Source: Bacteroidota bacterium (lineage in GTDB: Bacteria; Bacteroidota; Ignavibacteria; UBA10030). Taken from it: 60,926 nucleotides of DNA. Shown piece after piece: positions 9,204-37,134 of the stretch (position 1 is its first letter; every line of letters begins with the position of its first letter). Position numbers and translations under genes: made by a program. A model generated the notes under the pieces. It saw nothing but the letters and a program-made list of their open reading frames with translations. It searched no databases and had not been told where the DNA came from. Where the stretch lies: assembly GCA_021813905.1 (NCBI GenBank), contig JAKAJH010000013.1:1-60926 (forward strand), given 5' to 3'.

Positions 9204-9276
9204 ATCTCCCCCTTGTCCAGAGCTCCGAAACATCTACCCGCTTTTCAATTCCCCAATTACCAAATTCGCTCTCTGG

Positions 9277-9351
9277 GGTGACTAGAGGGATTCGAACCCT
9301 CGACCTCCAGGGCCACAACCTGGCGTTCTAACCGACTGAACTATAGTCACC
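9277..9351 (-). tRNA. tRNA-His (anticodon GTG)
   Basis: The minus strand forms a cloverleaf with acceptor stem GTGACTA/TAGTCAC. An extra G at the 5' end faces discriminator C, the identity element of tRNA-His. The anticodon stem CCAGG/CCTGG holds TTGTGGC with anticodon GTG, and the T loop is TTCGAAT. The first 24 bases of the gene recur twice more upstream (see the tandem repeat at 9328-9613). Confidence 0.93.
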
Positions 9352-9613
9352 ATGTTATACAGCGTACGAGCGTTCCCGACTCACTGCGTTCGTCGGGGTC
9401 CGCAAATTGACAGTGAACTTGTCTTCGCTGACGCTCGACAAGTTCAGTCAATTTGGGACTAACCGACTGAACTATAGTCACCATGTTATACAGCGTACGA
9501 GCGTTCCCGACTCACTGCGTTCGTCGGGGTCCGCAAATTGACAGTGAACTTGTCTTCGCTGACGCTCGACAAGTTCAGTCAATTTGGGACTAACCGACTG
9601 AACTATAGTCACC
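9328..9613. repeat. Exact 131-bp tandem duplication built on the 5' end of tRNA-His
   Basis: The 24-base 5' segment of tRNA-His (acceptor and D-arm part, 9328-9351) occurs again at 9459-9482 and 9590-9613. The 107-base spacers between the copies (9352-9458 and 9483-9589) are identical to each other. Each spacer holds two inverted repeats: CCCGAC/GTCGGG (loop about 11) and a stem of about 18 pairs formed by AAATTGAC..GAACTTGTC and GACAAGTTCAGTCAATTT. The unit therefore looks like a structured 107-bp insert flanked by 24-bp direct repeats, present twice. Recent duplication or an assembly artefact could both explain perfect identity. Confidence 0.9.
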
Positions 9614-9662
9614 GTGTACACCAAATCGCCCGGATCATTGCGCGAAGGGAGCTGAGACCCGG
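9614..9662. other. Spacer between the tRNA-His repeats and the upstream terminator
   Basis: This is probably the original upstream flank of tRNA-His before the duplicated units were inserted. TGAGACC at 9652-9658 is the reverse complement of GGTCTCA at 9689-9695, so an alternative pairing could compete with the terminator hairpin next to it. Confidence 0.35.
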
Positions 9663-9693
9663 AAAAAAAAGGCCTGTAATCACTTACAGGTCT
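9663..9693 (-). terminator. Strong intrinsic terminator placed just after a promoter
   Basis: On the minus strand CCTGTAA-GTGA-TTACAGG forms a perfect seven-pair stem with a GNRA-type tetraloop, followed by CC and eight T residues. It lies about 10-15 bases past the start site predicted from the promoter at 9710-9738. It would end most transcripts before they reach tRNA-His, unless it acts as an attenuator. Confidence 0.7.
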
Positions 9694-9709: not shown

Positions 9710-9738
9710 ATTATATCAAAAATTGAACACAGAGGCAA
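9710..9738 (-). promoter_or_regulatory. Sigma-70-type promoter upstream of tRNA-His
   Basis: On the minus strand TTGCCT (9738-9733), a 17-base spacer and a perfect TATAAT (9715-9710) form a strong promoter. Transcription would start near 9703 and run toward tRNA-His, the four-helix-bundle gene and tRNA-Glu, after crossing the terminator at 9663-9693. Confidence 0.6.
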
Positions 9739-34711: not shown

Positions 34712-34788
34712 GGCAACGACCGAAGGGGTGTCTACCAAGCCCCGAAGCGCGATCTCCAGAACCTCCGAATGACACGGACGCCGAACAC

Positions 34789-37134
34789 ATGACTGTTCCC
34801 TCATCCGATCGTGCACCGCTTCGTCTTCGCGTCGCCGTCTTCGGCGCTGTGCAGGGTGTCGGCTTCCGGCCGTTCGTTTATCGGCTCGCCACCGACCTGT
34901 CTCTCACGGGATGGGTGATCAACTCGGCGCAAGGCGTGCGCATCGAAGTGGAAGGGGAGCGCGCTGTGCTCCATCGTTTCATGCAGCGTCTCCGCAACGA
35001 ACTCCCGCCCCGTGCGGTCGTCCAGAGCTTGGAGCATTCCTTTCTGGATAGTGTCGGGTACACGGGATTCGAGATCCGTCAGAGCGATGACGTGGGAGAA
35101 AAGTCCGCACTCATTCTGCCCGATATCGCCGTCTGTCCCGACTGTCTGCGGGAAATGCGTGATCCGACGGATCGCCGCTATCGGTATCCCTTTACGAACT
35201 GCACGAATTGCGGTCCGCGCTTCACGATCATCGAGCAACTTCCGTACGATCGCCCCAACACGTCCATGCGCCGGTTTGCGATGTGCGATGACTGCCGGCG
35301 CGAATATGAAGATCCCTCCAACCGCCGGTTCCACGCGCAGCCGATCGCCTGTCCCGTTTGTGGTCCCCGCCTTGAGCTGTGGGATGAGAACGGCACCGTC
35401 TTTTCGCGTCGTCACGACGCTCTTCTTGAAGCCGTGGCCATCCTGAAGGCAGGAAAGATCGTCGCGGTCAAAGGACTGGGAGGCTTCCATCTCATGGCGG
35501 ATGCTTCCAACGCGGATGCGGTTGAACGCCTGCGGGGGCGGAAGCATCGCGAAGAAAAACCGTTCGCGCTGATGGCGCCGTCGCTCGATTCCGTCCGCTC
35601 TGTCTGTCGCGTCACTGAGAGCGAAGAGCGACTGCTTGCGTCTCCCGAGTCTCCCATCGTTCTCCTGGAACGACACGGGGACGGACCGGTCCTCATCGCC
35701 GCATCGGTCGCCCCCGCGAATCCGTACCTCGGCGTCATGCTCCCGTACACGCCACTCCATCATCTGCTGATGGATGCCGCCGGAACGTGGCTGGTCGCGA
35801 CGAGCGGCAACCGATCCGACGAACCGATCTGCACGGAAGAGCATGAGGCCCGTCGGCGCCTGGCGGGGATTGCGGATGCGTTCCTCGTCCACAACCGGCC
35901 GATCGTGCGGCATGCCGATGACTCGATCGTGCGCATCATTCACGGCCGCGAACTGGTCTGCCGTCGCGCCCGGGGATACGCGCCGCTTCCCGTGCCGCTG
36001 CACGGCGCGCTGGATCATGCGCGCCTGCTGGCGGTCGGTCCCCACCTGAAAAATACCGTGGCGCTCGTGAACCATGGCAATGCCTTCGTAAGTCAGCACA
36101 TCGGCGACCTGGAGACGAGAGAATCGCTCGATGCGTTCCATGCCGTCGTGCGCGATCTGCAGGAACTGCTCGACTGCCGTCCGACCGCCGTGACGTGCGA
36201 TCCCCATCCCGACTATGCGTCGTCCGGTTTCGCCCGTTCGTCCGGCCTCAAGGTCGAAGAAGTGCAGCACCATCTCGCGCACGTTGCATCGTGCATGGCG
36301 GAGAATGAACTCGGCGGGACGGTGCTGGGCGTTTCGTGGGACGGAACCGGATTCGGGGCGGACGGAACCATCTGGGGCGGAGAATTTCTGATCACCGACG
36401 GAGCTACCGCGACGAGATTTGCCCGCTTGCGTCCGTTTCCTCTCCCCGGCGGAGATGCGGCGGTCCGCGAGCCGCGCCGTTCGGCGCTCGGACTCCTGCA
36501 TGAGCTGAATGCTCATGGGACGACGGTCACGGAAGATCTGCCGACGTTCCGCGCCTTCACTTCCGCCGAACGCGACGTATTGCTGCGCGCTCTTGCCCGC
36601 GGAATCAACTCGCCGCTGACCTCGAGCGCCGGCCGGCTGTTCGACGCCACCGCGTCGCTGCTGGACATTCGCCAGAAGAGTTCGTTTGAAGGGCAGGCGG
36701 CCATGGATCTGGAATTTCTCGCCGGCACCGAGGCGGCTGAAGATGCGTACGCCTTCACGGTCGGGTCTGTTCCGCACCACCCGCATCTTGCACAAGTCGA
36801 AGCGCAATACGAAATTGACTGGAGTGACACGGTGCGGGGAATGCTCGCTGACCGGACGTCGGGGATGCCGCCGGCGCGGATCGCCAGGCGATTCCACGCG
36901 ACACTTGCCGAAATGGTCGTCGCGGTCTGCCGAAAGACGGACCGGGAACGGGTTGTCCTCAGCGGCGGCTGTTTTCAGAACCGCATTCTGCTTGAGCGAA
37001 CGATTGACCGTCTCGCAGCATCCGGATTTCGGCCGTACTGGCACCAGCGCATCCCGACGAACGACGGCGGCATCGCGCTGGGGCAGGCGTTCGTCGCGCT
37101 CCGGCGGAATCATCCGGCACCGACGGCCCGATGA
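34789..37134 (+). CDS. hypF: Hydrogenase maturation carbamoyltransferase HypF
   Basis: The 781-residue protein has the complete HypF layout: an acylphosphatase domain (VFGAVQGVGFRPFVYRLA, about 16-100), two zinc-finger motifs (CPDC...CTNCG and CDDC...CPVCG, about 115-200), a YrdC-like domain (KGLGGFHLMADASN near 225) and a C-terminal Kae1-like domain with the metal motif VQHHLAHVASCMAE near 490 and GGCFQN near 725. It makes thiocarboxamide on HypE from carbamoyl phosphate, the source of the cyanide ligands. The first ATG after the 151-base gap is used. Confidence 0.93.
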   Translation: MTVPSSDRAPLRLRVAVFGAVQGVGFRPFVYRLATDLSLTGWVINSAQGVRIEVEGERAVLHRFMQRLRNELPPRAVVQSLEHSFLDSVGYTGFEIRQSDDVGEKSALILPDIAVCPDCLREMRDPTDRRYRYPFTNCTNCGPRFTIIEQLPYDRPNTSMRRFAMCDDCRREYEDPSNRRFHAQPIACPVCGPRLELWDENGTVFSRRHDALLEAVAILKAGKIVAVKGLGGFHLMADASNADAVERLRGRKHREEKPFALMAPSLDSVRSVCRVTESEERLLASPESPIVLLERHGDGPVLIAASVAPANPYLGVMLPYTPLHHLLMDAAGTWLVATSGNRSDEPICTEEHEARRRLAGIADAFLVHNRPIVRHADDSIVRIIHGRELVCRRARGYAPLPVPLHGALDHARLLAVGPHLKNTVALVNHGNAFVSQHIGDLETRESLDAFHAVVRDLQELLDCRPTAVTCDPHPDYASSGFARSSGLKVEEVQHHLAHVASCMAENELGGTVLGVSWDGTGFGADGTIWGGEFLITDGATATRFARLRPFPLPGGDAAVREPRRSALGLLHELNAHGTTVTEDLPTFRAFTSAERDVLLRALARGINSPLTSSAGRLFDATASLLDIRQKSSFEGQAAMDLEFLAGTEAAEDAYAFTVGSVPHHPHLAQVEAQYEIDWSDTVRGMLADRTSGMPPARIARRFHATLAEMVVAVCRKTDRERVVLSGGCFQNRILLERTIDRLAASGFRPYWHQRIPTNDGGIALGQAFVALRRNHPAPTAR

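Follow-up and report, generated by a model that had tools for sequence, protein, structure and literature searches.

A probable miniature mobile palindrome that favours tRNA genes in Ignavibacteria

In the DNA analysed here (the window: 60,926 nt, contig JAKAJH010000013.1 of the Bacteroidota assembly GCA_021813905.1), the 5' end of a tRNA-His gene stands in tandem copies ahead of the gene itself, and the question raised by this locus is what lies between the copies and how they arose. The first-pass annotation offered two answers: a small structured mobile element for which the tRNA 5' end is the attachment sequence, or a slippage duplication. We consider it likely that the spacers hold a non-autonomous, miniature mobile palindrome, here called E, which prefers tRNA genes and whose insertion would be followed by a tandem duplication.

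The array in front of tRNA-His

Exact repeat comparison and TRF confirmed that three copies of the tRNA-His 5' segment are spaced 131 bases apart and separated by identical 107-base spacers. The array (9328-9617; period 131, 2.2 copies, 99% match) is the only one that TRF found, and consists of two 131-bp units followed by the true start of the tRNA-His gene. The 24-mer GGTGACTATAGTTCAGTCGGTTAG, which is the tRNA-His 5' end including G-1, occurs at 9328-9351, 9459-9482 and 9590-9613, and the two 107-mers between these copies occupy 9352-9458 and 9483-9589. At the DNA level the 131-bp unit occurs nowhere else in the genome (3.08 Mb, 90 contigs). Each spacer divides into the 85-bp element E and a 22-bp linker, giving the following features, ordered by coordinate.

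9274..9350, minus strand: intact tRNA-His(GTG) gene, with G-1 at 9351 (ARAGORN; Rfam RF00005, 72.5 bits)
9328..9351, minus strand: X, the 24-nt 5' part of the intact tRNA-His, the copy nearest the gene body (exact repeat)
9352..9373, minus strand: linker copy 1, in tRNA sense ACGCTCGTACGCTGTATAACAT (sequence comparison)
9374..9458, minus strand: E copy 1, 85-bp double hairpin TCCCAAATTGAC...GTCGGGA (covariance model R1, 85.0 bits, E = 2.6e-19)
9459..9482, minus strand: X copy 2, 24-nt tRNA-His 5' fragment (exact repeat)
9483..9504, minus strand: linker copy 2 (sequence comparison)
9505..9589, minus strand: E copy 2, identical to copy 1 (covariance model R1, 85.0 bits)
9590..9613, minus strand: X copy 3, outermost tRNA-His 5' fragment, adjoining what is presumably the original leader (exact repeat)
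9665..9690, minus strand: hairpin followed by a T-run, terminator- or attenuator-like, between promoter and array (sequence)
9710..9738, minus strand: promoter-like site TTGCCT-17-TATAAT, the probable tRNA-His promoter, upstream of the array (consensus scan, 10/12, 0.5 expected by chance)

The strong secondary structure claimed for the spacer was borne out by folding, which is far stronger than in shuffled sequences (z = -4.9 as DNA). After the GGGA end of E, the first bases of linker copy 1, ACGC, continue the tRNA sequence, leaving a remnant, y, of AACGC; the right boundary of E can be drawn equally as GTCGGG|AACGC or GTCGGGA|ACGC. There is no room for a gene within the 85 bp of E. An Rfam cmscan of the window returned two tRNAs only, E matching no known RNA family above gathering score, and at tRNA-free E sites Rfam likewise gave no other structured RNA at E itself.

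The annotation was also correct that 262 extra bp separate the tRNA from its probable promoter, the promoter-like site (9738-9710, minus strand) lying upstream of the whole array. Similar sites precede tRNA-His in relatives, and in many of the relatives' tRNA-His leaders similar hairpins recur, of the form GCCTGTTA...TAACAGGC-TTTT. In the window the hairpin and T-run directly after the promoter-like site (9738-9665, minus strand) look, from their sequence, like an attenuator in the tRNA-His leader.

That the array is chance or purely an assembly artefact is disfavoured. Tandem arrays of the same design occur at three loci in relatives (L025, L036, L079), and their copies differ from one another by substitutions, which argues against a pure artefact.

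A family of double hairpins at tRNA genes

E is a non-coding sequence of about 80-95 bp that forms two adjacent hairpins, first a long and then a short one, within the frame 5'-TCCCAA...GGATCCCG...CGGGA. In order, it comprises 5'-TCCCAA, the long hairpin, TTGaGGATCCCG, the short hairpin and CGGGA, and the long hairpin has a loop resembling GAGCGnAGCGAAG and a bulge that is conserved. An alignment of thirteen copies contains compensatory changes in 16 of the 29 predicted pairs. The covariance model R1, which was built from tRNA-linked copies and whose own content encodes no tRNA, finds six copies of E in the genome of the window and copies in 33 of the 41 genomes searched, mostly draft metagenome assemblies (MAGs); some weaker matches have ends misplaced by a few bases (L049, for example). 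The proposed mobile element of 107 bp is upheld insofar as the spacer holds a conserved, repeatedly inserted double hairpin; the element itself is 85 bp and the rest is linker.

The search of relatives that the annotation had proposed, run over 40 related genomes, returned tRNA-His and spacer pieces near other tRNAs. In the genome of the window all six copies lie within 400 bp of a tRNA gene, where about 1% would be expected (p = 3.6e-12, an optimistic value as chance was modelled by uniform positions); all six are within 160 bp and five within 150 bp. Their neighbours are tRNA-His (two copies), Pro-GGG, Arg-CCT, Gly-CCC and Arg-TCT, and two weaker additional copies adjoin the same Arg-CCT gene. 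Two relatives rich in E show the same association, with 16 of 26 copies (G003) and 19 of 25 (G004) no more than 400 bp from a tRNA gene, where 1.1-1.3% would be expected (p < 1e-24, and still p < 1e-15 after arrays were collapsed, on the same uniform model). This 50-fold excess near tRNAs is not explained by intergenic bias alone. Among the loci fetched, 95 of 142 copies have an intact tRNA within 300 nt; many of the remaining copies adjoin tRNA fragments, and others a protein gene's stop codon.

Among the tRNA genes of relatives, those for His, Met, Phe, Arg, Pro, Val and others have broken copies that contain E, with an intact copy alongside. Reading the loci individually, we found that related double hairpins separate a fragment of tRNA-His, -Met, -Phe, -Arg or -Pro from an intact copy of the same gene. 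One locus (L025, genome G033) reads GTGGCCATAGTTCAG-E-TTGGTT... twice, with the complete tRNA-His, GTGGCCATAGTTCAGTTGGTT..., after them. At three loci (L083, L126, L135), what look like tRNA-Glu 3' ends next to E may be chance likeness to coding sequence and were left out of the tRNA insertions. A pattern scan for E in a tRNA D-loop across about 85,000 species (257 Gb) matched 15 contigs, all labelled as Ignavibacteria, Ignavibacteriales or Bacteroidetes/Bacteroidota MAGs; the same pattern had no match in IMG/VR, where viral carriers were sought.

Broken tRNA copies at four loci contain other palindromes, with a single hairpin, CCCGCCCGACCGAAC...GTTCGGGCGGG and CCCCGACG...TGTCGGGG, at L036, L093 and L114 in the D-loop after GGATA and at L029 in the T-loop. 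By their sequences, these palindromes point to more than one family of tRNA-invading palindromes.

The position of the array between the probable promoter and tRNA-His, and the strong folding of the tRNA-His leader as RNA (z = -9.3), would suit a host regulatory RNA or structured leader in which a broken tRNA and hairpins serve tRNA-His expression as a decoy or a signal for processing. We regard this as very improbable: E occurs on either side of tRNA genes and in either orientation, many different tRNAs are affected, it is also present at gene ends and in attC sites, and close relatives have a tRNA-His gene without E.

Insertion points and the flank duplication

We placed 31 events internal to tRNA sequence, and they are concentrated on a small number of bonds: after nt 9-11 (6 events), 15-16 (11), 22-24 (3), 34-36 (8) and 41-48 (3). 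Other copies of E adjoin a tRNA 3' end or overlap a 5' end. In tRNA-His the interrupted bond varies by species (10, 15, 22-23 or 43), which indicates that the insertions were independent. The bases next to the TCCC end show a bias, in order, toward C, a base other than G (position -3 is rarely G), A or T at -2 and G or C at -1, and the TCCC end is joined to, for example, TAG, CAG, CTTG or NAC, sequences that are frequent in tRNA genes. Restriction of insertion to the cloverleaf loops was dropped as an idea because the bonds 10|11 and 22|23 are stem edges; a short motif, YAG, fits better.

The ends of E are precise. The tRNA cases read X-E-Y with no repeat and no short fixed target-site duplication. 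In an integron array of one relative (G029), the 82-bp E is the exact difference between attC sites that contain it and those that are empty (GGCTCA^CCTGCG becoming GGCTCA-TCCC...GGGA-CCTGCG), which identifies E as a discrete insert made with no target duplication. Among 62 sampled attC sites of this array type, four have E and about 58 do not (the count has one blank row), and the filled sites may descend from one ancestral insertion that spread with the cassettes. The loci read from this genome (L123 and L192-L221) contain about 97 attC-like sites 0.5-1 kb apart, a large integron cassette array, of which a few carry E.

Read in the orientation of E, the sequence flanking the TCCC end (X) is found again beyond the element for 45% of copies, compared with 1.6% of random positions (score >= 10); duplication of the other flank is largely limited to tandem arrays. 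The general order is X-E-y-linker-X-Y, in which the tRNA XY is intact and the length of X ranges between about 10 and 60 nt. The target sequence continues after E for 4-8 nt (y), and the match then ends, in 29 of 50 tested cases; y is at least 5 nt in 27 of these 50 and in 0 of 57 shuffles. Which part of the tRNA is duplicated depends on orientation: for duplications within 300 nt of tRNAs, E is upstream in sense in 27 cases, downstream in antisense in 20, downstream in sense in 2 and upstream in antisense in none (p = 8e-12). The repetition of the 5' end only, which the annotation had stressed, is accurate here, while elsewhere either end of a tRNA is copied according to the orientation of E.

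These results do not support the proposal that the tRNA 5' end serves as attachment sequence. In the window E lies inside a tRNA copy, in the D arm after nt 22-23, with boundaries TCCC...GGGA; other members lie at other points of other tRNAs, and those in opposite orientation duplicate the 3' part. A 107-bp site-specific element integrating serially at the tRNA 5' end, in the manner of an integrase-borne element, would produce the order X-E-linker-X, and X is indeed a perfect 24-bp direct repeat. However, the insertion points vary within and between tRNAs, X ranges so widely in length, reversed copies of E duplicate the 3' part, the unit is geneless and a tRNA remnant follows E; such an element is, in our judgement, highly improbable.

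A stronger alternative, although still an unlikely one, reverses the order of events: tandem duplications of whole tRNA genes, or of their 5' or 3' parts, would be common in these bacteria, and E, an intergenic palindrome, would accumulate in the spare and dispensable copy through tolerance and not targeting. E within tRNA sequence is nearly always beside an intact copy, second insertions land in already broken copies (L120, L036, L063), and some loci (L048, L039) have a second leader or terminator that was copied with the tRNA part. At tRNA-Gly(CCC) in the genome of the window (L048, C73 near 34786-35004), for example, the downstream terminator was duplicated along with the tRNA 3' part and E, and at L120 the second E, at nt 10 of an already broken copy, is a simple insertion with no truncation of y. 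Against this order, independent duplications would neither track the orientation of E nor leave y so tightly at 4-8 nt; the same left-flank duplication occurs at the ends of protein genes (L091, L096, L106) and at L132; and E adjoins intact tRNA 3' ends without any duplication, which shows that tRNAs are struck anyway.

In the reading that we prefer, E would move as a unit. Comparison of loci shows that its insertion is precise at the TCCC and GGGA ends, with no target duplication and a strong preference for tRNA genes, and that E is also present at the 3' ends of protein genes and in integron attC sites. Insertion would proceed through a single-stranded hairpin intermediate handled by an enzyme. 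In surviving lineages with E in a needed tRNA gene, a short tandem duplication is present, X-E-y(4-8 nt)-linker-X-Y. This duplication might come from repair on a sister template, in which the 5' flank, along with several bases beyond E, would be joined to an upstream point of the E-free sister copy, or from a prior duplication of the gene; that is, the duplication could also be earlier than the insertion. In the window, E would have entered the tRNA-His D arm after nt 22-23, and the 131-bp X-E-linker unit would then have been duplicated again, probably by recombination between the 24-bp X repeats. Slippage duplication, the annotation's other suggestion, probably accounts for the two exact 131-bp units and leaves E itself unexplained.

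A bolder version of this reading is possible rather than probable: E may represent a novel class of two-hairpin mobile DNA, restricted to Ignavibacteria, which recognises tRNA genes and couples oriented single-strand insertion to duplication of the 5' flank, with the 4-8 nt remnant, restoring the essential gene in the same event.

Candidate enzymes, known systems and meaning

The first candidate for moving E is a Y1 (HUH) transposase. PF01797 (Y1_Tnp) has three matches in the genome of the window and is present in 36 of the 41 genomes. E could be a REP-like palindrome moved in trans by a RAYT/IS200-type Y1 transposase, inserting 3' of a short motif and leaving the target unduplicated; the lack of a target duplication, the hairpins with an extrahelical bulge, the motif preference on the TCCC side and the wide occurrence of PF01797 genes all suit this proposal, which gives the preferred reading a named enzyme. 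Nevertheless, 30 sampled loci around PF01797 genes contained no R1 match at E <= 1, one genome (G026) has E and no PF01797 match, and the Y1 gene on contig C36 in the genome of the window has different palindromes nearby. Overall we hold this attribution to be doubtful, and the notion that E flanks a Y1/RAYT gene is rejected, as none did in the 30 loci. The C36 gene (L153, G000:C36:13000-17500) is RAYT-like and its own palindromes read GCGTCAGGACTTCCGTCCTGACGC.

Spread driven by reverse transcriptase was rejected on the absence of PF00078 from the genome of the window (7 of the 41 genomes have it). IntI-like genes do not track the number of E copies, and four E-rich genomes (G003, G004, G018, G040) lack strong IntI matches. 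An integron-integrase-like gene (G000:C6:1973-2941; about 320 bits to NF011946, under its cut-off) is present in the genome of the window and about 11 relatives. We found no parental IS for E.

REP palindromes are short non-coding hairpins, several to many per genome, at gene 3' ends. E resembles them in form, occurs at gene 3' ends as well, and most genomes that carry it have Y1 genes; it differs in being concentrated in or at tRNA genes, in its double hairpin with TCCC/GGGA ends, and in its absence beside the sampled Y1 genes. MITEs, including palindrome-associated elements derived from IS200/IS605, are miniature, non-autonomous and palindromic, and the IS200/IS605 kind makes no target duplication. 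E shares all of this, whereas its preference for tRNAs, the flank duplication that keeps the target gene intact and the lack of a parental IS set it apart; the short target-site duplication required of a DDE-transposon MITE is absent in the attC and tRNA cases. Rickettsia palindromic elements are short selfish palindromes inside genes, for the most part known from protein genes, in frame. E is likewise a short palindromic element inserted within genes, but in tRNA copies, with a second copy preserving the gene. Integron attC sites, and the elements that target them (group IIC-attC introns, IS1111-attC), involve a structured single-strand hairpin with extrahelical bases. Such a hairpin is a feature of E too, and E also inserts into attC; its ends, TCCC/GGGA in the alignment, lack the RYYYAAC...GTTRRRY boxes, it is not cassette-borne at tRNAs, and its number does not track the presence of IntI-like genes.

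REP/REPIN palindromes with RAYT transposases are treated in PMC2817692 and PMC3116915. Genomic islands and prophages that integrate at tRNAs leave a partial tRNA (PMC9897764), and a 1.8-kb Caldiarchaeum element carries a tRNA 5' fragment (PMC3293823). As with E, the insert is flanked by one complete and one partial tRNA copy, but these elements span kilobases and have a known or predicted recombinase, whereas E is 80-95 bp and geneless, with no integrase or constant att core, and strikes many points in many tRNAs in both orientations. Open-access papers were searched for palindromes within tRNA genes, repeats of Ignavibacteria, RAYT and double hairpins, and none was found to describe E.

tRNA genes are the usual landing sites of large integrase-borne elements, which use one fixed place. 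By contrast, a geneless hairpin of about 80 bp here strikes many tRNAs at many places and in both orientations, and an oriented duplication would keep the essential gene. E accounts for tRNA fragments that annotation may label as pseudogenes. The X, y and linker segments form a readable record of insertion through which the spread of palindromes may be studied, and the clean empty sites, in tRNAs and attC, offer a test case for finding the enzyme.
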